Shown here in pieces: positions 4,274-27,273 of a stretch of 27,273 nt of DNA (the stretch's first letter is position 1; every line of letters starts with the position of its first letter). The stretch is taken from positions 1 through 27,273 of the IMG/VR virus record IMGVR_UViG_3300030098_001013; one strand, 5' to 3'. A model generated the notes under the pieces. It was not told the DNA's origin, searched no databases, and saw only the letters and a list, made by a program, of their open reading frames with translations. Made by a program: the position numbers and the translations under genes. The DNA comes from a virus.

Positions 4274-5194
4274 ATGCTTATAAACTACGATGAACATATA
4301 AATAAACTAAACGACTTTAGAAAAGGTAAAGTTAAAGAGGCCTTAAAGTTAGGTAATAAAGAACTTGACGCTTCATTCCGCTTTGTTTCCGGAAATATGA
4401 ATTTTATACTCGGGCATAATAATGTTGGAAAAACACATTTTACTTTTTATCTTATGCTGCTATACTCACTAAAACACAATATTAAATGGTTAGTTTTTTC
4501 GTCAGAAAATGATGCAGTACAGCTAATAAAAAAATTAATTGAATTTATTGAAGGCAAACCGATAAATAAAATACAGGAATCAGATTACGAACAATCAAAA
4601 GAATTTGTATATAATCATTTTAAATTTGTAGATGTAAACAGACAATACACTTATAAACAACTTTTAAAGTTAGCTACAAAAGTTAAAGAAGCTTGGGATT
4701 ATGATGGGTTGCTAATTGATCCTATAAATTCATTAAAGAAAGATTTAAGAAACACAAACGGCTATGAATACAACTACGTTCAATTAACCGATATTCGTAT
4801 TTTTTCTAAGACGCATAATATATCAACTTGGATCTGCGCTCATGCGGTGACCGAAGCGTTAAGAAGAAAACATTCTCCAAATCATGAATATGGGGGTATG
4901 ACTCCTCCTCCAACGATTGGAGATAGCGAGGGGGGCGCTGTAAATGGAAACCGTTGTGATGATTTTTTAATATGCCATCGGTATATAAGCTCGCCTGATG
5001 CTTGGATGTATACCAGGCTCTATGTAGCAAAAGTCAAAGAAATGTCTTTAGGATATAAACCAACAAGTCACGAATCACCAATACTGTTTAAATCAATATT
5101 AAATAATGTAGGCTTTGAAATAGGTGGTTATAATTTAATTAAATATCGAACTAATAAACAATTAAAAATTGACAACTCTCGAAAAGCTTGCTAA
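4274..5194 (+). CDS. DnaB/RecA-fold replicative helicase-like ATPase
   Basis: This 306-residue protein carries Walker A GHNNVGKT (47-54), SSEND (76-80) in the place of the DnaB-type catalytic Glu strand, Walker B YDGLLIDP (143-150, Asp149), and a WICAHAVTEALRR segment (187-198) that fits motif H3 of SF4 helicases. The TPPPTIGDSEGGA stretch and FLICHR strand fit the loop and strand of H4. It corresponds to only the ATPase domain of DnaB: the N-terminal collar and any primase domain are missing. I chose ATG 4274 over GTG 4259, because the latter lies inside the terminator stem and would encode PPFF from its U-tract. The end overlaps the sigma-like gene by 26 nt. Confidence 0.82.
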   Translation: MLINYDEHINKLNDFRKGKVKEALKLGNKELDASFRFVSGNMNFILGHNNVGKTHFTFYLMLLYSLKHNIKWLVFSSENDAVQLIKKLIEFIEGKPINKIQESDYEQSKEFVYNHFKFVDVNRQYTYKQLLKLATKVKEAWDYDGLLIDPINSLKKDLRNTNGYEYNYVQLTDIRIFSKTHNISTWICAHAVTEALRRKHSPNHEYGGMTPPPTIGDSEGGAVNGNRCDDFLICHRYISSPDAWMYTRLYVAKVKEMSLGYKPTSHESPILFKSILNNVGFEIGGYNLIKYRTNKQLKIDNSRKAC

Positions 5195-5666
5195 AAAACA
5201 TAAAACTTGGATTCGCTATGTTATTTCGTTCGGTTGTGATCCCGCTATAGCTGAGGATATAGTTCAAGAATGTTATATAAAAATTGATAAATTATTATCG
5301 AAAGGTTTAAATATTGATTACGGTGAAGAAATTAATTATTTTTATGTATATAAAACATTAAAAACATTGTACGGAGATTTATTAAGACAAAATAAAAAAA
5401 TAAAAAAAGTTGATATTGATGCTTTAAACAAGTATATAATTGAAGAAGAAGAACAGGTAAAAAATATTGATGTATCAAAAAAAATGCAAGAGTTAAATAA
5501 AATTTTAAATTCAATTTATTGGTATGATCGCAAAGTATTTGAAATTATATCAAGCGGGGTAACTATTGCAGAACTATCACGAAAAACAAATATAACATAC
5601 GCCTCGTTATATAATACATATAAGAATGTTAAAAATACAATAAAAAAAAATATAGAATGGGATTAG
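5169..5666 (+). CDS. Sigma-70 (ECF-like) RNA polymerase sigma factor-like protein
   Basis: This 165-residue protein has two helical parts joined by an acidic linker (about 95-102). The first (14-45, WIRYVISFGCDPAIAEDIVQ then ECYIKIDKLL) fits sigma region 2, with the typical AEDIVQE core for binding the polymerase clamp. The C-terminal part (about 120-160, FEIISSGVTIAELSRKTNIT then YASLYNTYKNVKNTIKK) fits a region 4 helix-turn-helix. The start is TTG at 5169, inside the helicase 3' end; no better start exists upstream. It could direct host polymerase to phage promoters, and a recurrent CGTTATA element before late genes is a candidate target (inference). It could also be a DNA-binding regulator only. 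Confidence 0.76.
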   Translation: MTTLEKLAKKHKTWIRYVISFGCDPAIAEDIVQECYIKIDKLLSKGLNIDYGEEINYFYVYKTLKTLYGDLLRQNKKIKKVDIDALNKYIIEEEEQVKNIDVSKKMQELNKILNSIYWYDRKVFEIISSGVTIAELSRKTNITYASLYNTYKNVKNTIKKNIEWD

Positions 5667-5788
5667 GAGATTTAATAGAAAAAATCACGACATACACGGG
5701 AATTAAATGGATTGTTAAAAAAATTTACGGCAATGATTGTGGTTGCGACAAGCGAAAAGAAAAAGCAAACAAAGTAAAACTATGGTAG
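5657..5788 (+). CDS. Conserved CGCDKRKE micro-protein
   Basis: This 43-residue protein starts MGLGDLIEKITTYTGI and ends in DCGCDKRKEKANKVKLW. The GDxIEKITxxTGI start and the CGCDKRKExxN end are a combination I recognise from small proteins of Bacteroidetes phages, without known function. Two close cysteines (28 and 30) might bind a metal. It overlaps the sigma-like gene by 10 nt and the next gene by 7 nt. Confidence 0.76.
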   Translation: MGLGDLIEKITTYTGIKWIVKKIYGNDCGCDKRKEKANKVKLW

Positions 5789-6135: not shown

Positions 6136-6165
6136 TTGTTTATATAATATTTTTTTGTATATTAG
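6136..6165 (+). promoter_or_regulatory. Bacteroidetes-type promoter
   Basis: TTG at 6136-6138, a 19-nt spacer (6139-6157), and TATATTAG at 6158-6165 match the Bacteroidetes housekeeping promoter TTG-N19-TAnnTTTG with one mismatch in the -7 box. The ATG of the next gene is 21 nt further on. It lies in one of the few intergenic gaps of the early region and would drive 6187 to about 9880. Confidence 0.62.
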
Positions 6166-9675: not shown

Positions 9676-9880
9676 CGACAATTGGGAAACGCCTAAAGAA
9701 CTTTATGACAAGTTAAATAATGAGTTTGATTTTAATTTTGATCCTTGTCCAATAAACCACAATACAAATAAATGGGATGGGCTGAAAATAGACTGGAAAG
9801 AAAGAAACTTTATCAATCCCCCTTACACAGGTATGCACGATAGTATGATTGTAGTATTGAAACAAAATCTTGAAGATTAG
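9650..9880 (+). CDS. Truncated Dam-like DNA adenine methyltransferase
   Basis: This 76-residue protein begins like phage N6-adenine methyltransferases: NWETPKELYDKLNNEFDFNF (11-30), DPCP (31-34), KWDGLKIDW, then FINPPYTG with the catalytic NPPY (about 54-57). Family members usually continue for about another 90-100 residues with the LLPxRTDT-like strand and the second half of the fold. Here the frame stops 19 residues after NPPY, and no continuation is seen in other frames up to 9918. The protein is probably inactive or works only with a partner. It may be a decaying remnant at the boundary between early and late modules. Confidence 0.76.
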   Translation: MKNRSLNHSDNWETPKELYDKLNNEFDFNFDPCPINHNTNKWDGLKIDWKERNFINPPYTGMHDSMIVVLKQNLED

Positions 9881-9890
9881 CGTTATATAA
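9881..9890 (+). promoter_or_regulatory. CGTTATA element before terminase operon
   Basis: CGTTATATAA follows directly on the stop of the Dam-like remnant and lies 38 nt before the ATG of the small terminase gene. The same ten bases recur at 11359 and 22527, with variants at 18284 and 20157. Here the distance to the ATG differs from the usual 12 nt, which argues for a promoter rather than a ribosome-binding element. The stretch 9890-9918 is pure A/T with TTAATTAA-type palindromes until CTTTT. Confidence 0.5.
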
Positions 9891-9918
9891 TTAATTAATT
9901 AATTTAAATTAATCTTTT

Positions 9919-10167
9919 ATGGATCGTAGAAAGAATAACGGAGGACACTCAACTAAAGGCTTTGCAGGTAGAAAACCTAAAGCAGAAGAAGTAAAACTAA
10001 TAGAGAAACTTACACCACTTGAGCCTTTAGCATTTGAAGCCCTTAAAAAGGGTTTAGAAAAGGGCGACTTTAAATATGTACAACTATACTACAATTATGT
10101 AGCAGGCAAACCAAAAGAAACAAAGGACATACACATAAACGAAGATGTGCCTTTATTTATTGATTGA
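9919..10167 (+). CDS. Small terminase subunit-like protein
   Basis: This 82-residue protein has a basic Gly-rich start, NNGGHSTKGFAGRKPKAEE, as in many small terminase subunits. A helical part follows (LEPLAFEALKKGLEKGDFKY, then VQLYYNYVAGKPKETKDI), which resembles the helix and GKPKE segment of these proteins. It should bind phage DNA at the packaging start. The position directly before the large subunit, with a 1-nt overlap (TGATG), supports the call. Confidence 0.78.
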   Translation: MDRRKNNGGHSTKGFAGRKPKAEEVKLIEKLTPLEPLAFEALKKGLEKGDFKYVQLYYNYVAGKPKETKDIHINEDVPLFID

Positions 10168-11336
10168 TGCAGCTTACCAAAACTTTAGCACTTAACAAAC
10201 TACGAGAACTAGACAAAAGAGTTCGTATAATCAGAGGAGGATCATCAGCAGGTAAAACAATAGCTATAATAGCAATTCTAATTGATTATGCAATAAGACA
10301 TAAAGGAAAAGAAATAAGCATAGTAGCCGAATCAATACCACACTTACGCAGAGGTGCTTTAAAAGACTTCTTAAACATCTTAAAGGGGCTGAATAGGTAT
10401 GATGATAGAAAGTTTAACAAAAGCACTTTAAAATACGAATTTAGCAATGGTAGTTATATAGAGTTTTTTAGCACAGATCAACCAGATAAACTTAGAGGAG
10501 CTAGAAGAACAGATTTATTTATTAATGAGTGCAATAATGTTAGCTTTGATTCTTATCAACAACTAGCAGTTAGAACATCAGGTAATATATGGCTTGACTA
10601 TAACCCGGCTAACTTATTTTGGGTTGACAAAGAATTAATAGGGCAGCAAGACGCAAACTTTATAACATTAACCTATAAAGACAATGACAGTTTACCAGAA
10701 TCAATAATTAAAGAAATAGAGAAAGCCCAAGTAAAAGCTAAGACATCTACTTATTGGGCTAACTGGTGGAAGGTATATGGATTAGGGCAAATAGGTAGTT
10801 TAGAAGGCGTATGTATTCCTGACTGGAAACCTATAGACAATATACCACAAGAAGCTAGGTTATTATGTGCCGGGCTTGACTTTGGTTATAGTGTTGATCC
10901 CTCAACTATAATAAGATTATATAAATGGAATGATGCTTATATATTTGATGAGGTACTATATCGTAAGGGAATGTTAAATAGAGATTTAAGTTACTTCATA
11001 AAACAAAACAATATACAAGAACACATATACGCAGATAGTGCAGAGCCTAAGTCAATACAAGAGTTAAGAAATTATGGGCATAGAATATTCCCTGTTACAA
11101 AAGGTAAAGATTCAATAGTTTATGGTATTAACCTAATTAATCAAAATGAAATATATGTAACCTCAAAGTCTAAAAACCTTATTAAAGAATTACAAGGGTA
11201 TGTATGGGACAAAGACAAAGAAGGTAACAATTTACAAAAACCTACAGGTTTACATCCTGATTGTATTGATGCGGCACGATACGCTTTAATGATGCAATTA
11301 AAAAATCCCAACAAAGGAAAATACATAATTCAATAG
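10167..11336 (+). CDS. terL: Large terminase subunit
   Basis: This 389-residue protein has an N-terminal packaging ATPase with Walker A GGSSAGKT (24-31) and Walker B DLFINE (116-121). A C-terminal RNase-H-type nuclease has GLDFGY (236-241, Asp238), YADSAEP (288-294, Asp290) and HPDCIDAARYAL (363-374, Asp365 and Asp368). The layout fits the PBSX / Terminase_3 type. It packs DNA into the prohead. I chose ATG 10167 over TTG 10164: it shares one base with the previous stop and reads MQLTKTLALN. A CGTTATA element follows the gene. Confidence 0.93.
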   Translation: MQLTKTLALNKLRELDKRVRIIRGGSSAGKTIAIIAILIDYAIRHKGKEISIVAESIPHLRRGALKDFLNILKGLNRYDDRKFNKSTLKYEFSNGSYIEFFSTDQPDKLRGARRTDLFINECNNVSFDSYQQLAVRTSGNIWLDYNPANLFWVDKELIGQQDANFITLTYKDNDSLPESIIKEIEKAQVKAKTSTYWANWWKVYGLGQIGSLEGVCIPDWKPIDNIPQEARLLCAGLDFGYSVDPSTIIRLYKWNDAYIFDEVLYRKGMLNRDLSYFIKQNNIQEHIYADSAEPKSIQELRNYGHRIFPVTKGKDSIVYGINLINQNEIYVTSKSKNLIKELQGYVWDKDKEGNNLQKPTGLHPDCIDAARYALMMQLKNPNKGKYIIQ

Positions 11337-11358
11337 TTTCCAAAACTTTTTATTTTTA

Positions 11359-11370
11359 CGTTATATAAGT
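11359..11370 (+). promoter_or_regulatory. CGTTATA element 12 nt before tail chaperone ATG
   Basis: CGTTATATAAGT stands directly before the ATG at 11371. It is identical for 12 bases, plus the ATG, with the element at 22527-22538. It is a candidate phage promoter with a near-leaderless start, or a translation enhancer. Confidence 0.5.
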
Positions 11371-12018
11371 ATGAGAAAAGAAGTAATAGTGCCTAATTCT
11401 CTTAACGAGATAACTTTAGCTCAGTATCAAAAGTTTTTAAAGATACAAGATAATAATGATGATGAGTCTTTTCTAGCTATCAAAATGATTGAAATATTTT
11501 GTGGTATTAGATCAGATTTAATTTTAAAGATGAAGGCTACTAGCATACGAGATATTACTAACGTATTATCAGAGATGTTTAAAGAAACGCCTCCACTCGT
11601 AAAAGAGTTTACTATGAATGGAGTAGATTATGGGTTTATACCTAATATTGAAGATATGACTTTTGGTGAGTATGTAGATTTAGACACTTATATAGGTGAC
11701 TTTGATAATATTGAGAAAGCTATGGGTGTTTTATACCGCCCTATTATTCAAAGATACAGCGATAAGTATTTAATAGAAGAATACAAAGGTGATAAGTCTG
11801 ATTTAATGAAAGATATGCCAATGGATGCAGTATTAGGCTCTATTGTTTTTTTTTATCATTTAGGGATGGACTTATCGAGAACTATGCTGAGCTATTTACA
11901 GGAGGGGGAGATGAACTCAGCTCAGAGGCAAATTTTGGAAGAAAATGGGGGTGGTATCAATCAATTTACGGACTCGCTCAAGGGGATATTAGAAGATTTA
12001 AAGATATCACTAAGCTAA
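11371..12018 (+). CDS. Tail assembly chaperone-like protein (short frame)
   Basis: This 215-residue protein begins RKEVIVPNSLNEITLAQYQK, the start of a family of tail assembly proteins I recognise from Bacteroidetes phages; it then has FCGIRSDLI, a central domain to about 150, and MPMDAVLGSIVFF (150-162). The 0-frame C-terminus reads EENGGGINQFTDSLKGILED. A run of nine T (11846-11854) offers a -1 slip into a second open frame that ends at 12107. Gene pairs of this form (G and GT in lambda) help assemble the tail around the tape measure protein. Here the tape measure gene is five genes away, further than usual. Confidence 0.72.
   Translation: MRKEVIVPNSLNEITLAQYQKFLKIQDNNDDESFLAIKMIEIFCGIRSDLILKMKATSIRDITNVLSEMFKETPPLVKEFTMNGVDYGFIPNIEDMTFGEYVDLDTYIGDFDNIEKAMGVLYRPIIQRYSDKYLIEEYKGDKSDLMKDMPMDAVLGSIVFFYHLGMDLSRTMLSYLQEGEMNSAQRQILEENGGGINQFTDSLKGILEDLKISLS
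11847..11853 (+). other. Candidate -1 ribosomal frameshift site T_TTT_TTT
   Basis: In the 0 frame the codons are GTT, TTT, TTT, TAT. The last T of GTT and the two TTT codons form a perfect X-XXY-YYZ heptamer in the correct phase. A -1 slip would change reading from FFYHLGMD to FFLSFRDG. The target frame is open from 11802 to 12107. A GGAGGGGGAG run at 11901-11910 is the only other notable element nearby. A miscounted T in the assembly is the alternative explanation. Confidence 0.6.
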
Positions 12019-18264: not shown

Positions 18265-18283
18265 ACAAAAAAAATAAATTAAA

Positions 18284-18295
18284 CGTTATAATAAT
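18284..18295 (+). promoter_or_regulatory. CGTTATA element 12 nt before protease ATG
   Basis: CGTTATAATAAT stands directly before the ATG at 18296, at the same spacing as at 11359, 20157 and 22527. The preceding 20 nt are A-rich. It could start transcription of the head gene block. Confidence 0.48.
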
Positions 18296-19867
18296 ATGAA
18301 GATAATAGAACTAATTTTAGGAGATGGTGTTTTTTCAGGAATAGAAGCTATTTCTTTAGTCGAAGCACCTGCTATTGAAGAGGATTTTATTACTTTAAAA
18401 TCTCAAGAAGTTAAACTTGCTGAAGTATCTAGCGAGAAACGAATCTTAATGGGAGCTTTACTAGTACCCAATAAACCAATATACAGAAAGAGTGGAGAGG
18501 AAGAATATTATATATATTTCTCAAAGAAAACAATAGAGAAAGCATCTCAGCTTTATTTAATGAATGGTAAACAAAATAATGCCACTTTAGAACATCAGCA
18601 CACTTTAAAAGGATTAACTTTAGTAGAATCTTGGCTTGTTGAAGATGAAGTACACGATAAATCTAGAAAATACGGTTTAGATGTGCCCCTGGGTACTTGG
18701 ATGGGGGCAGTAAAAGTAAACTCTGATGAAGTTTGGGACGAATATGTAAAAACAGGCAAAGTAAAAGGATTTAGTATAGAAGGTTATTTTGCAGATAAAG
18801 CTGAGCGTCCACAAGAGCCGATAAATGACTTTGAAGAAGAAGAGGCAGCGGAAATGCTCCGAGATATAAGATCAATAATAAAAGAAGACAGTAGATTAAA
18901 AGAAGGTAAAAGAAGAGAATTTGAATCTTATAGCGATTACCCTCAAGCACTTAAAAATAATGCTAAAAGAGGTATAAATTTAAATGAAAAGGTAAATAAT
19001 AAATGCGCAACACAAGTGGGGAAAATACGGGCTAGACAATTATCGCAAGGCAAACCGATTTCTAAAGAAACAATTAAAAGAATGTACTCGTATTTAAGTA
19101 GAGCAAAAGAATATTATAATGAATCAGATAAAGAAGCGTGCGGTACTATTTCTTACTTATTATGGGGTGGTAAAGCGGGGTTAAGATGGTCAGAATCTAA
19201 ACTTAAAGAATTAGGCGAAATAGAATTAGCTTCTATGGTTATTAATGAGGATTTTGCAATAATAGATGATAGATTAGCTTACTCAACACAAGAGAAAGCT
19301 GAAGAAATGGCAAAGAACATAGGGTGCAAGGGTTTTCATACTCACGATTTTGAGGGAAAAACTTGGTATATGCCTTGTGAAACACATATTAAAGAAGATA
19401 TGAAAAAATGCCCCGAGGGTTTTAAAAAAGTATATGGCAAGTGTGTAAAAATGGCTGAAGTAGGAAAAAGAGGTGGTATAAAAAAATCCCCTAAAGCGCC
19501 AAAATCGAATACCCCTAATCCTAAGCCTAAAGGCAAAGGAACAGCAAAAGGGGACGCCTCAACAACAAGAGGTGCTAAAGTATCAAAAAAAGACGAAGCA
19601 ACTTTAAAAAAAAAGTCAGATGAATTTAATGAAAGATATAAAAAAAAATTAGGGTATGGTGTAAATGTAGGAATGTTAAAGGCTGTATTTCAAAGAGGCT
19701 TAGGCGCATTTAATGTTTCACACAGCCCAAGAGTAAAAAGTGCTTCTCAATGGAGTTTTGCCAGAGTAAATGCCTTTTTATATTTAGTTAAAAATGGCAG
19801 GCCTCAAAATAAAAAGTATACAACAGATTTTGACTTATTACCAAAGGGTCACCCTAAAAAACAATAA
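18296..19867 (+). CDS. Prohead protease fused to conserved C-terminal modules
   Basis: This 523-residue protein's N-terminal third is an XkdF-like prohead protease (S78-related): LMGALLVPNKPIYRK (51-65), NATLEHQHTL (95-104; catalytic His100 or His102), and VKGFSIEGYF (156-165; Ser160). Residues about 207-305 (FESYSDYPQALKNNAKRGIN, then NKCATQVGKIRARQL, MYSYLSRAKEYY and CGTISYLLWGGKAGL) form a module common beside phage head genes. A Cys/His segment follows (IGCKGFHTHDF, WYMPC, CPEGFKKVYGKC). The end (about 450-520, GYGVNVGMLKAVFQRGLGAF, DFDLLPKGHP) looks like DUF5824. The protease should cleave scaffold and perhaps itself; the other modules have no known role. Confidence 0.84.
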   Translation: MKIIELILGDGVFSGIEAISLVEAPAIEEDFITLKSQEVKLAEVSSEKRILMGALLVPNKPIYRKSGEEEYYIYFSKKTIEKASQLYLMNGKQNNATLEHQHTLKGLTLVESWLVEDEVHDKSRKYGLDVPLGTWMGAVKVNSDEVWDEYVKTGKVKGFSIEGYFADKAERPQEPINDFEEEEAAEMLRDIRSIIKEDSRLKEGKRREFESYSDYPQALKNNAKRGINLNEKVNNKCATQVGKIRARQLSQGKPISKETIKRMYSYLSRAKEYYNESDKEACGTISYLLWGGKAGLRWSESKLKELGEIELASMVINEDFAIIDDRLAYSTQEKAEEMAKNIGCKGFHTHDFEGKTWYMPCETHIKEDMKKCPEGFKKVYGKCVKMAEVGKRGGIKKSPKAPKSNTPNPKPKGKGTAKGDASTTRGAKVSKKDEATLKKKSDEFNERYKKKLGYGVNVGMLKAVFQRGLGAFNVSHSPRVKSASQWSFARVNAFLYLVKNGRPQNKKYTTDFDLLPKGHPKKQ

Positions 19868-20129: not shown

Positions 20130-20156
20130 TTAAAAACACAAATATAAATTAATAAT

Positions 20157-20168
20157 CGTTATAGTAAT
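20157..20168 (+). promoter_or_regulatory. CGTTATA element 12 nt before scaffold ATG
   Basis: CGTTATAGTAAT lies directly before the ATG at 20169. It matches the other elements in sequence and spacing. It could give an extra transcript for scaffold and capsid, which are needed in high amounts. Confidence 0.48.
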
Positions 20169-20780
20169 ATGAAAGCAACAGAAATTTTAAAAAATATTAA
20201 AACTTTCCTTGGGGAAGAAATAATAGAAGAAACTCCGGTTGAACTTCAAGAAGAAGTTGCAGAGGAGGTAAAAGTAGAGTTGGCGCAAGCTAAACTTGAA
20301 AACGGAACACTAGTAGAATCAAGTTCATTTAAAAAAGGTGATGAAATTTTTATCTTAACAGATGATGAAAAAGTAGCTATGCCCGTAGGCGAGTACGTTA
20401 TGGAAGACGGCAAACTTCTTGTTGTTGAAGAAGAAGGCATTATTGCTGATTACAGAGTTGTATCTGATGACGTACCGCAAAAAGAGGATAAAATGAAAGA
20501 AGAAATGGATGAAGAAGCTGCAGTGTATGACTGGAAAGGCATGGAAAAAAGAATTAAAAATCTTGAAGACGCTATTGCAGATCTAAAATCTAAAATGGGC
20601 GAAAAGGAAGATTTTGAAAAAGTTGAGGAAAAAGTTAAGCAAGAGTTATCAAAAACCCCAGCGACAGAGCCTATTTCTCACACTCCAGAAGTGGAAGACA
20701 AAAAAATCAATCTAAAGTATGCGAACAAAAGAGCGCAATCTTCTTTAGATCGTGTATTAAGTAAAATGTATAATAATTAA
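20169..20780 (+). CDS. Head scaffolding protein
   Basis: This 203-residue, strongly acidic protein has an N-terminal helix, then a compact beta block (about 43-92: LENGTLVESSSFKKGDEIFI, VAMPVGEYVMEDGKLLVVEE). A coiled coil (WKGMEKRIKNLEDAIADLKS) and a basic C-terminal helix (NKRAQSSLDRVLSKMY) follow. The basic end fits the usual capsid-binding tail of scaffold proteins. The place directly before the capsid gene and after the protease is the standard one. The beta block is a pattern I know from related scaffold proteins; its role is unknown. Confidence 0.78.
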   Translation: MKATEILKNIKTFLGEEIIEETPVELQEEVAEEVKVELAQAKLENGTLVESSSFKKGDEIFILTDDEKVAMPVGEYVMEDGKLLVVEEEGIIADYRVVSDDVPQKEDKMKEEMDEEAAVYDWKGMEKRIKNLEDAIADLKSKMGEKEDFEKVEEKVKQELSKTPATEPISHTPEVEDKKINLKYANKRAQSSLDRVLSKMYNN

Positions 20781-20792
20781 AATTAATTAAAA

Positions 20793-21722
20793 ATGGCAAA
20801 TCCAACTTATACCGCTGGAACTTACTCAGGTGAATTTAGTGGTAAAATTATAGGCGCAGCGTTGTTATCAGCTTCTACTTTAGACGCAGGAGCGATTACA
20901 ATCATGCCTAACGTAAAGTTCAAATCTGTATTACAGGTAGGGGCTTGGGCAAATGTAGTAAAAGGTGCATCTTGTGATTTTGATAGCACTACTACTACTT
21001 TAACTTTAACAGAGAAAGTATTAGAGGTTAAAGAACTTCAAGCTAATGCTCAGTTATGTAAAAAAGAACTTAGAGATGAATGGCAGGCTGTTGAGATGGG
21101 ATTCTCGGCTTACTCAGAAATTCCAGCTTCTTTCGAGGAGTATGTGCTTTCAAGAGTAGCTGCTCAAGTAGCAGATGCTACAGAAACTTCTATCTGGAAT
21201 GGTGCAGCGGGCGCTGATGACTTTGATGGTTTTCAGGCTTTATGTGCAGCTGATGGAGATGTAGTTGATGTTGCAGGTACTGCTGTTGATTCAGCTAATG
21301 TAATTACAGAAATGGGTAAAGTAGTTGATGCTGCGAATGTTGCATCTTTAGCTAAATCTGACATTACTCTTTATGTATCAAATAATATAGCTCGAGCTTA
21401 TATTAGAGCTTTGGGCGGTTTTGGCACATCTGGTTTAGGTGCAGCGGGTATCAACAATCAAGGTACGGGATGGTATTCTAATGGTACTCAATTAACATTT
21501 GAAGGTATTCCTGTATTTATTTGTAATGGAATGGGTAATGATAGAATGATTCTTACTTACAAAAGTAATCTTTTCTTTGGTACCGGGCTTTTATCAGATC
21601 ATACGGAAGTACGATTTATTGATATGGCTGACAAAGACGGATCACAAAATGTCCGAGTAATTATGCGTTACACAGCAGGGTGTCAAATCGGAGTAGGGGC
21701 AGATATTGTTTACTATTCATAA
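20793..21722 (+). CDS. Major capsid protein, HK97-fold type
   Basis: This 309-residue protein, with a less A/T-biased codon choice than early genes, fits a highly expressed structural gene. It has an N-arm (ANPTYTAGTYSGEFSGKIIG), a spine-like helix (PASFEEYVLSRVAAQVADAT, about 110-130), the ITLYVSNNIARAYIRAL helix and strand, and a P-domain-like close (FEGIPVFICNGM, RMILTYKSNLFFGT, QNVRVIMRYTAGCQIG). This order is usual for HK97-fold capsid proteins of Bacteroidetes phages. A terminator follows. The call rests also on gene order protease, scaffold, capsid. Confidence 0.84.
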   Translation: MANPTYTAGTYSGEFSGKIIGAALLSASTLDAGAITIMPNVKFKSVLQVGAWANVVKGASCDFDSTTTTLTLTEKVLEVKELQANAQLCKKELRDEWQAVEMGFSAYSEIPASFEEYVLSRVAAQVADATETSIWNGAAGADDFDGFQALCAADGDVVDVAGTAVDSANVITEMGKVVDAANVASLAKSDITLYVSNNIARAYIRALGGFGTSGLGAAGINNQGTGWYSNGTQLTFEGIPVFICNGMGNDRMILTYKSNLFFGTGLLSDHTEVRFIDMADKDGSQNVRVIMRYTAGCQIGVGADIVYYS

Positions 21723-21737
21723 TAACTAATCTAAGAG

Positions 21738-21760
21738 GGGTAGTTTAGGCTACCCTTTTT
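21738..21760 (+). terminator. Intrinsic terminator after capsid gene
   Basis: GGGTAG (21738-21743) pairs with CTACCC (21750-21755) around TTTAGG, followed by TTTTT. The stem can extend outward by a wobble and an A-T pair. The next gene starts 17 nt later behind TAACTTTATAGT (21765-21776), a variant of the CGTTATA element at the same distance from the ATG. Confidence 0.84.
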
Positions 21761-21776
21761 ATAATAACTTTATAGT

Positions 21777-22301
21777 ATGGCTTGTTTATTAACTAATGGT
21801 AGAACGGTACCTTGTAAATCAGCGGTAGGTGGTTTAAAAAGTGTTTATTTCACAGATTTTGGTGGATTAGGGACTATTACAATTACTTCTTTTGAGATTA
21901 CAGCTATTACAGGTACTCCTACAGTTTATCAGTTTGATTTAAAAGGTGATTCATCTTTAGAAACTACTGTAACAAGTTCTAGAGACAATGGTACTACTTT
22001 TTATGAAAGCACCCTTACTCTTAACTTTACTTTTTTAGATAAAGATACTCAGGATGAAATAAGACTTCTTGCAATAGCTCGTCCACATATTTGGGTAGAG
22101 GATTACAATGGTAATTACTTCTTAGTAGGTAAAGAGAATGGGGCTGAATTAACTACAGGTACTTTTGGTACAGGAGCGGCTATGGGAGATAAGAGTGGAT
22201 ACTCTTTAACATTTGTAGCTACAGAGAAAGCAGCACCAGACTTCACTCAGGCTAGTGTAGTAACAGGAGCTAATCAAGGATCACAAATTACTCCTAACTA
22301 A
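21777..22301 (+). CDS. Probable major tail tube protein
   Basis: This 174-residue, all-beta protein begins MACLLTNGRTVPCKSAVGGL and has KSVYFTDFGG, YQFDLKGDSSLETTV, FYESTLTLNFTFLDKDTQ, a short helix (DEIRLLAIAR) and NYFLVGKENGAEL. The ACLLTxGRxxxCKxxVGG start marks a tail tube family I recognise in Bacteroidetes phages. It has its own transcription unit, with a terminator before and three after it, in line with a need for many copies. It lies between capsid and portal genes, away from the other tail genes. Confidence 0.74.
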   Translation: MACLLTNGRTVPCKSAVGGLKSVYFTDFGGLGTITITSFEITAITGTPTVYQFDLKGDSSLETTVTSSRDNGTTFYESTLTLNFTFLDKDTQDEIRLLAIARPHIWVEDYNGNYFLVGKENGAELTTGTFGTGAAMGDKSGYSLTFVATEKAAPDFTQASVVTGANQGSQITPN

Positions 22302-22330
22302 TAGGAATAATTAAAATCAATAAAATTAAA

Positions 22331-22359
22331 GGGGTATGTAAATCGTACTCCTTTTTTTT
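22331..22359 (+). terminator. First of three tandem terminators
   Basis: GGGGTAT (22331-22337) pairs with GTACTCC (22345-22351) with two wobbles, and eight T follow. It ends the tail tube transcript, 30 nt after the stop. The bases at 22361-22368 read TATCTTTG, an exact TAnnTTTG -7 box, but no TTG stands at the right distance upstream. Confidence 0.8.
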
Positions 22360-22413
22360 ATATCTTTGCTTTAACTTAATTTAAGTTTTCATAAATATTA
22401 GTTTTTGTTAGGA

Positions 22414-22441
22414 GGGAAGTTTTGTACTTCCCTTTTTTTTT
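22414..22441 (+). terminator. Second of three tandem terminators
   Basis: GGGAAGT (22414-22420) pairs perfectly with ACTTCCC (22426-22432) over a 5-nt loop, and nine T follow. There is no gene between the first terminator and this one, only 54 nt of AT-rich sequence. Confidence 0.85.
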
Positions 22442-22470
22442 GTATATTGTAGTAGATTAAATGTAATAAG

Positions 22471-22503
22471 AGGGAGGTTGTAGCAATACGCCTCTCTTTT
22501 TTT
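22471..22503 (+). terminator. Third of three tandem terminators
   Basis: AGGGAGG (22471-22477) pairs with CCTCTCT (22491-22497) with one wobble; the 13-nt loop is followed by a T run. The preceding 29 nt contain no gene. A CGTTATA element and the next ATG follow 30-40 nt later. Confidence 0.78.
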
Positions 22504-22526
22504 ATGTACAAAATTTAAAGAAAGTA

Positions 22527-22538
22527 CGTTATATAAGT
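22527..22538 (+). promoter_or_regulatory. CGTTATA element 12 nt before ATG, after triple terminator
   Basis: CGTTATATAAGT lies directly before the ATG at 22539 and is the same 12 bases as at 11359. After three terminators a new promoter is required for the portal operon, and this is the only recurrent element in the remaining space. This makes it the best-placed copy in favour of promoter function. Confidence 0.55.
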
Positions 22539-22904
22539 ATGATACACTTAACTACATCCGCGTCATCACAAACTTTAAAGATTATTCCTAGAAGTTATGC
22601 AGGTACTGTTAGTATGATATTGAGAGATAATTCAACAAACAATGAAACTACATACTCATCAATAAGTACAACAACGGATAAGAATTATCTAGTAATATCT
22701 AAAGCATTAAGTCCAGTATTAGTAGAGGGAAGATTTTATGACTTAACAGTAAAAGAGGGATCAAGTGTTATTTATAAAGACAAGATATTTTGTACTGATC
22801 AAACGATTAACCAAGCAAATAATGATTATTACACAGTTAATCAAGGAGCTTATACAGTTCCAACTGGTACAGATGCTTACGACAATGATTATATTATAAT
22901 ATGA
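22539..22904 (+). CDS. Small beta-rich structural protein
   Basis: This 121-residue, strand-rich protein (QTLKIIPRSYAGTVSMILRD, YLVISKALSPVL, FYDLTVKEGSSVIYKDKIFC) has a characteristic end, FCTDQTINQANNDYYTVNQG. I recognise this end from small structural genes beside portals in Bacteroidetes phages. It probably forms part of the virion; the exact place is not known. The stop overlaps the portal ATG by 4 nt. Confidence 0.66.
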   Translation: MIHLTTSASSQTLKIIPRSYAGTVSMILRDNSTNNETTYSSISTTTDKNYLVISKALSPVLVEGRFYDLTVKEGSSVIYKDKIFCTDQTINQANNDYYTVNQGAYTVPTGTDAYDNDYIII

Positions 22905-26867: not shown

Positions 26868-27162
26868 GATAGGTGAGAATACCAATGTAACTTTAGATCT
26901 TAAAACTATAGGTATTATAGTAGGTGGTGCTATTAGTTTAGCAAGTATGTATTTTGCTTTGAAGTCTGATATAGCTGTAGCAAAAGAATTACCTAAACCC
27001 GAAGTCTCTAAAATTGAGTGGAGTTATAAAGATGAGTTGGTGCGATCAGAAATATCTAACACTAATGAAAAGGTAGAGGGTTTAGAAAAATCAGTCGGAG
27101 AAATTAAAGAACAACTTAATAAGATTGATGAGAGATTGTATCAAATAAGTAAAAATAAATGA
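26860..27162 (+). CDS. Membrane-anchored coiled-coil protein (lysis-associated)
   Basis: In this 100-residue protein, a short polar start is followed by one membrane helix (about 16-36, IGIIVGGAISLASMYFAL). After KSDIAVAKELPKPE a long coiled coil runs to the end (KDELVRSEISNTNEKVEGLE, then KSVGEIKEQLNKIDERLY). This resembles XhlA-type haemolysin-associated and holin-helper proteins. It heads the envelope cassette that continues at base 65. Its 3' end is present a second time at 1-68. The exact role (holin partner, spanin-like or anti-holin) cannot be read from the sequence. Confidence 0.8.
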   Translation: MTKIGENTNVTLDLKTIGIIVGGAISLASMYFALKSDIAVAKELPKPEVSKIEWSYKDELVRSEISNTNEKVEGLEKSVGEIKEQLNKIDERLYQISKNK

Positions 27163-27273
27163 AATGGAATGTAACGGGAATTGCCCTTTTTGTATGGGTT
27201 GCTAATTTTGCTCAAACTGAATCTATTTCGATAGTTCAGTATACAGCAGAATTTGCTGAGCAGGTATCTTTAG
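27095..27273. repeat. Right copy of 179-bp terminal redundancy
   Basis: This is the same stretch as 1-179 with ten mismatches at positions matching 75, 101, 102, 105, 108, 109, 111, 113, 114 and 118 of the left copy. The first 74 and last 61 bases are identical in both copies. Confidence 0.9.
27159..27273 (+). CDS. Second allele, 5' part of exported thioredoxin-like gene
   Basis: This is the first 38 codons of the gene seen in full at 65-388. The signal peptide here reads MKWNVTGIALFVWVANFAQT, against MKWIVTGIALFVTAVINAQT in the left copy. Six residues differ, and only one codon of those touched is synonymous. Both versions remain good signal peptides with Ala before Gln-Thr. The frame runs off the end of the window. 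Confidence 0.88.
   Translation, partial: MKWNVTGIALFVWVANFAQTESISIVQYTAEFAEQVSL

Follow-up and report, generated by a model that had tools for sequence, protein, structure and literature searches.

It is very likely that a phage-encoded ECF-type sigma factor directs the host core RNA polymerase to five late promoters in this small marine phage, that residues 66 and 70 of the sigma factor read the promoters, and that the resulting mRNAs are mostly leaderless. The window, i.e., the whole stretch of DNA analysed here, is a virus record of 27.3 kb (31% GC) whose + strand holds nearly all of the long reading frames. The ends of the record (1-179 and 27095-27273) repeat with 94% identity over 179 nt, and the record therefore probably represents a circular or complete genome with a slight overlap at its ends. 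NinG-like, helicase, thymidylate synthase, MazG and exonuclease-like genes occupy the left part of the window, and terminase, protease, capsid-like and portal genes the right part. The gene for the sigma-like protein lies in the left part, directly after the helicase gene. The virus and its relatives are known from metagenomes only, and no DNA relatives of the window were found in INPHARED.

The initial annotation had listed CGTTATAnnA at 9881, 11359, 18284, 20157 and 22527, four copies 12 nt before an ATG and one 38 nt before, all heading late genes. Positions, spacing and placement were confirmed for all five, and a sixth copy at 5605, in the sigma coding sequence, had been missed. The motif itself is real, but it is one half of a bipartite promoter, as the alignment of 42 sites from relatives revealed a further box in constant position, AAAA, which occupies -17 to -14 relative to the C of CGTTATA and is separated from it by an AT-rich 13-nt spacer. 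The A box is in exact register at 5/5 late sites, with the variant AAAT at site 20157. With its two boxes, its fixed spacer, AA in the -35 box and a CGT-type -10 box, all traits of ECF promoters, the full element (C/T)AAAA-N13-CGTTATA reads as an ECF-type -35/-10 promoter. A weight matrix made from relatives alone gives the six sites scores of at least 17.8, against 8.8 for the site that ranks next in the window. The window holds six forward and no reverse copies of CGTTATAnnA vs 1.4 expected, a count reached in 0 of 100 shuffles. A count of CGTTATA over the genome, proposed earlier as a check, thus bears out the longer motif but not the heptamer alone, for which enrichment is weak (6 found vs 3.8 expected; 6 reached in 17 of 100 shuffles).

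All five late promoters lie on the + strand. Promoter 1 (9864-9893; AAAA 9864-9867, CGTTATA 9881-9887) heads the first late unit (9919-11336, + strand), a terS-like gene, named from position only, followed by terL, whose product matches Terminase_3C (5.5e-19) and phrog_2 (3.7e-42). Its predicted +1 at 9893 would give a leader of ~26 nt before ATG 9919. At the other four promoters the predicted +1 is the A of the ATG. These are promoter 2 (11342-11371; AAAA 11342-11345, CGTTATA 11359-11365; ATG 11371), ahead of the 11371 gene and a module that extends to 18264; promoter 3 (18267-18296; AAAA 18267-18270, CGTTATA 18284-18290; ATG 18296), ahead of an XkdF-type head maturation protease gene; promoter 4 (20140-20169; AAAT 20140-20143, CGTTATA 20157-20163; ATG 20169), ahead of the 20169 gene and the capsid gene at 20793; and promoter 5 (22510-22539; AAAA 22510-22513, CGTTATA 22527-22533; ATG 22539), ahead of the 22539 gene, the portal gene and onward. 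The three terminators described before 22527 are there: a terminator tool found two in tandem on the + strand (22328-22354 and 22410-22436, within 22328-22436), and a third at ~22469-22497 is readable in the sequence.

Two further sites deserve comment. The sixth match, CAAAT-N13-CGTTATATAA (5588-5614, + strand; score 17.8), includes the CGTTATAnnA copy at 5605, which encodes the invariant SLYN peptide of region 4 of the sigma factor. Codons for SLYN differ among relatives, and therefore the protein explains the position of this copy. Yet TCG, a rare codon, is overrepresented at the SLYN serine (34/111 genes vs 36/924 at other serines of the same genes). The copy may be a coding coincidence, or it may serve some lineages as an internal promoter. 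The second site is TAACTTTATAGT at 21765, which had been taken for a variant of the element. This reading is not supported: the sequence is present, but its TTATA lies 3 nt out of register and it has no A box, and relatives have only a terminator and an ATG ahead of the corresponding gene and do not keep TAACTTTATAGT. At 21722-21777, the gene after the capsid gene is preceded by a terminator-like hairpin and no late promoter, in the window and likewise in relatives, and may depend on read-through.

The element is conserved among relatives. In 80 TerL relatives CGTTATAnnA occurs 150 times forward and 10 times reverse, and 61 copies are exactly 12 nt before an ATG; with the relatives' matrix, sites for the full element at a score of at least 18 bits in 80 TerL loci number 216 forward and 0 reverse. 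Both -17 and -16 are A in 41/42 non-redundant aligned sites. AAA-N14-CGTTATA is found in 45 of 50 whole records, on one strand in nearly all, with controls near 0, and the sigma is present in 44 of the 50. The same late genes bear the element in many records, mostly with 3-6 copies per genome on the coding strand. When loci were drawn by the promoter pattern alone, the sigma appeared in 13 of 118, always on the motif's strand, and in 11 of 44 such fragments of at least 9 kb; a C/G-swapped control pattern drew the sigma in 0 of 59 loci. Relatives that keep the element and lack the sigma gene, which had been named as a possible refutation, yielded no clean case among motif-bearing records: G017, G018 and G050, in which no sigma was detected, are shorter and may be fragments, and G039 and G047 have chance-level matches. 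G035 (L332-L333; K38, T66) has a sigma of the family, yet no late promoter could be recognised in it, whatever the dialect. The records of L012 (53,010 bases) and L028 (47,685 bases), with two sigma genes and ten late promoters each, look as if two related genomes had been joined.

The sigma gene (5169-5666, + strand) has a TTG start and encodes 165 residues that match the NCBIfam sigma70-ECF model over residues 4-161 (E=3.8e-8), although the TIGR02937 score of 33.1 bits is below the family cut-off of 42.9. The sigma70-ECF model matches 22 of 23 family members (best 6e-13), and Pfam Sigma70_r2 matches 20 of 23 relatives. The region 2- and 4-like parts described by the initial annotation are borne out by profile, AF2 model and PDB comparison: region 2 (~residues 11-78) is joined to region 4 (~102-161) by a disordered linker (79-98), with no regions 1 and 3 (no sigma3). 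The AF2 model (pLDDT 79.6) has two helical domains and the disordered linker, and its leading PDB matches are all sigma factors, ECF first (sigmaE 1or7, Z 10.6), with Foldseek and VIA read for relative standing only. Single domains superpose on ECF domains at 1.5-2.6 Å (region 4 vs 2h27, 2.1 Å over 66 residues; region 2 vs 4lup, 2.6 Å over 76), and over the full length the rmsd is large, owing to the flexible connection between the domains. By its modelled fold and its predicted reading residues, the protein is an ECF-class sigma. No relatives were confirmed in bacterial genomes, and tblastn gave no match for the window sigma among 50,697 INPHARED phage records, nor for three divergent members of the family in INPHARED phages at E 0.01.

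The TTG start (5169-5194) is inside the end of the helicase gene, and several relatives likewise have Leu in an open frame at this position, which hints at low or coupled translation. The gene is followed by one for a 43-aa protein with the sequence DCGCDKRKEK (5657-5788); similar small proteins follow the sigma in at least 39 of 271 sigma loci, and a role as sigma partner is possible.

What links the sigma to the promoters most directly is that the two change together. Four sigma-positive genomes without CGTTATA (G015, G016, G023 and G038) have the same architecture with CGATATA in intergenic DNA. Sigmas with Leu/Met38 and Gly66 go with CGATATA and those with Lys-type 38 and Ser/Thr/Asn66 go with CGTTATA, with no overlap; Gln38/Gly66 genomes use TTATATA, and Lys38/Gly66 goes with TGATATA (one site). 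As a test of the residue-base rule, later contigs were fetched with two dialect sigmas, and these brought Gln38/Gly66/Asn70 sigmas with TTATATA (17 sites), Lys38/His66/Arg70 sigmas with TATTATA (7 sites) and Tyr38/Gly66 with CTATATA (2 sites). Gly66 sigmas are thus paired with CGATATA, TTATATA, TGATATA or CTATATA, i.e., A at -10, and Ser/Thr/Asn/His/Ala/Cys66 sigmas with CGTTATA or TATTATA, i.e., T at -10, with no exceptions among 108 distinct sigmas. In site counts that include redundancy between overlapping loci, non-Gly66 sigmas have 261 CGT and 0 CGA sites and Gly66 sigmas 50 CGA and 0 CGT. Apart from CGT and CGA, the trinucleotide classes were defined once the sites had been inspected; TTT, CAT and AAA, which also occur close to ATGs in Gln38/Gly66 loci, are probably unrelated and were left out. 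Two apparent exceptions, L119 and L199 (TTA with non-Gly66), came from CGTTATATAA 14 nt from the ATG being read out of register.

A scan of all sigma columns, which used no structural knowledge, found residue 66 to be the best predictor of the -10 base (108/108) and residue 70 of the -11 base (96%). In the open complex of Mycobacterium tuberculosis sigma-H the -10 element is G-11 T-10 T-9, N88, the proposed specificity determinant at T-10, forms a bond with this base, and N92 is in contact with the -11 pair (PMC6411747). The covarying columns correspond to these crystal contacts, since an ungapped alignment to the SigR helix, weak at E ~0.2-0.3 and in agreement with the fold, pairs residue 66 with N88 and residue 70 with N92; in the window sigma the predicted specificity residues are T66 and D70. 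Residues 66 and 70 thus appear to set the -10 and -11 bases, and we regard this covariation, drawn from sequence comparison, as decisive for the sigma-promoter link.

An alternative is that the link is right but 66 and 70 are clade markers that do not touch DNA, with other residues setting the dialect. We consider this unlikely, if worth keeping in mind. Independent switches are few, and the -10 base also follows residue 38 (99%). The best tree has five coinciding changes, but its well supported branches hold no more than two independent pairs, so that a sign test cannot reach 0.05; with so few tree-independent changes, the case rests on the contact match, the concerted switch across whole genomes and the new-contig test, not on a p-value. 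Against the alternative, 66 and 70 rank first for precisely the bases contacted by their sigma-H counterparts, and across the five coinciding changes CGTT members adjoin CGAT members.

The reading that we favour, with 66 and 70 as the reading residues, leads to the following mechanism. The 5169-5666 product would be a small ECF-type sigma that associates with the host core RNA polymerase and brings it to the five late promoters, with region 4 most likely reading the A box and region 2 the -10 element as C-12 G-11 T-10 T-9, residue 66 reading -10 and residue 70 reading -11. The five units would span every gene from terS to the right end. Core binding, start site, timing and leaderless translation are inferred; the element with its register, strand and conservation, the fold and the covariation come directly from the analysis. 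The phage-specific late circuit proposed earlier is upheld by the ECF fold, by same-strand promoters at the same late genes in relatives and by residue-base covariation.

Transcription would start 12 nt past the C of CGTTATA, since G is at -11 by sigma-H numbering; in 4/5 units this is the A of the start codon. The predicted +1 base is a purine in 40/42 aligned sites, terS included. The near-leaderless mRNAs of the initial annotation fit, and four late units probably give exactly leaderless mRNAs, unlike most Flavobacterium johnsoniae mRNAs, 87% of which have leaders over 10 nt (PMC6847099). The fixed 12-nt distance to the ATG in 4/5 sites could instead mark a translation-initiation signal, i.e., start-codon context and no promoter, since Bacteroidota, which lack Shine-Dalgarno sites, rely on upstream context (PMC6847099). 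This is highly improbable: the terS copy is 34-42 nt before the ATG in relatives, the spacing between A box and CGTTATA is exact at terS as well, a single -10 base changes throughout the sites of a genome together with a sigma residue, and genes within units do not have the element. That the element serves a host sigma, the phage protein having another role, has equally little chance, for although host ECF sigmas are abundant, the -10 and -11 bases track the region 2.4 residues of the phage protein and the sigma appears in contigs picked by promoter pattern alone.

Beyond the window, we think it reasonably probable that a large group of uncultured phages shares one ECF architecture with the dialects CGTT, CGAT, TTAT, TGAT, CTAT and TATT, set mainly by the region 2.4 residues 66 and 70, which changed in concert with the late promoters of each genome. 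The result would be late regulons that are orthogonal to one another and mostly leaderless.

In phage T4, too, late transcription depends on a small sigma-like protein, gp55, which recognises a single TATAAATA element with no -35 and needs gp33 and the sliding clamp; the window promoters, unlike those of gp55, have a second box at fixed spacing. The late sigma gp47 of phage 7-11 acts with host core polymerase at late promoters GTAAtg-16-aCTA (PMC8948821). Both systems have a phage-encoded sigma, with host core use inferred for ours, and bipartite promoters before late genes; 7-11 differs as an enterobacterial C3 podophage with a different promoter, and leaderless mRNA is not mentioned for it in PMC8948821. 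Phage phiEco32 gp36, again a phage sigma, for middle and late genes, uses a single element, tAATGTAtA, and has no recognisable region 4 (PMC8948821), whereas the window has two promoter boxes and a sigma with region 4. The phiEco32 and 7-11 sigmas have been termed ECF (PMC7881722), and like theirs, the promoters of the window sigma head late structural genes; the present group shows no relationship to them by sequence search, and its promoters differ in architecture and occur in several dialects. The window sigma would work like a phage ECF late sigma. Phage late sigmas are already known (phiEco32, 7-11); this sigma lineage and its promoter dialects appear new. The ECF factors M. tuberculosis sigma-H and Streptomyces coelicolor SigR share with the window sigma region 2 plus region 4, the same relative position of the +1 (predicted for the window), and a -10 GTT read through N88 and N92, matching 66 and 70. 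They are bacterial stress regulators with a GGAAT -35 and a 17-18 bp spacer, and the A-tract of the window is ~3 bp closer to the -10 than in GGAAT-N17/18-GTT; T/S and D stand where sigma-H has N88 and N92.

ECF -10 specificity has so far been studied by mutating single factors. These phages offer a natural repeat of such an experiment, in which a single residue and a single base have switched across whole genomes on several occasions, and the sigma and its signal changing together give a natural view of how a sigma reads DNA; the sigma-H study goes no further than to suggest N88 as a possible determinant of the -10 base (PMC6411747). Candidate orthogonal sigma-promoter pairs can be taken directly from the covarying phages, the element can serve to locate late genes and units of uncultured phages, and the late units allow leaderless translation to be tested in hosts of the Bacteroidota type, most of whose mRNAs carry leaders.

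Host-like promoters (TTG-N17/20-TAnnTT(T/A)G) match at similar frequency on both strands, and therefore only one is noteworthy, TTG-N19-TATATTAG at 6136-6165, shortly upstream of gene 6187; a sigma-70 consensus scan gave no excess above shuffles. The terS leader (9893-9918) carries three half-sites, TTGA, TCAA and TCAA, the first of which overlaps the predicted +1. In terS leaders of relatives, e.g., CTTGAATAATCAAGTTTTTTTCAAGATG and ATTGATTAATCAATCTTTTTCAATTATG, the outer base of the half-sites covaries (C/G/G, A/T/T, T/A/A), and the half-sites could form an operator or an alternative hairpin.
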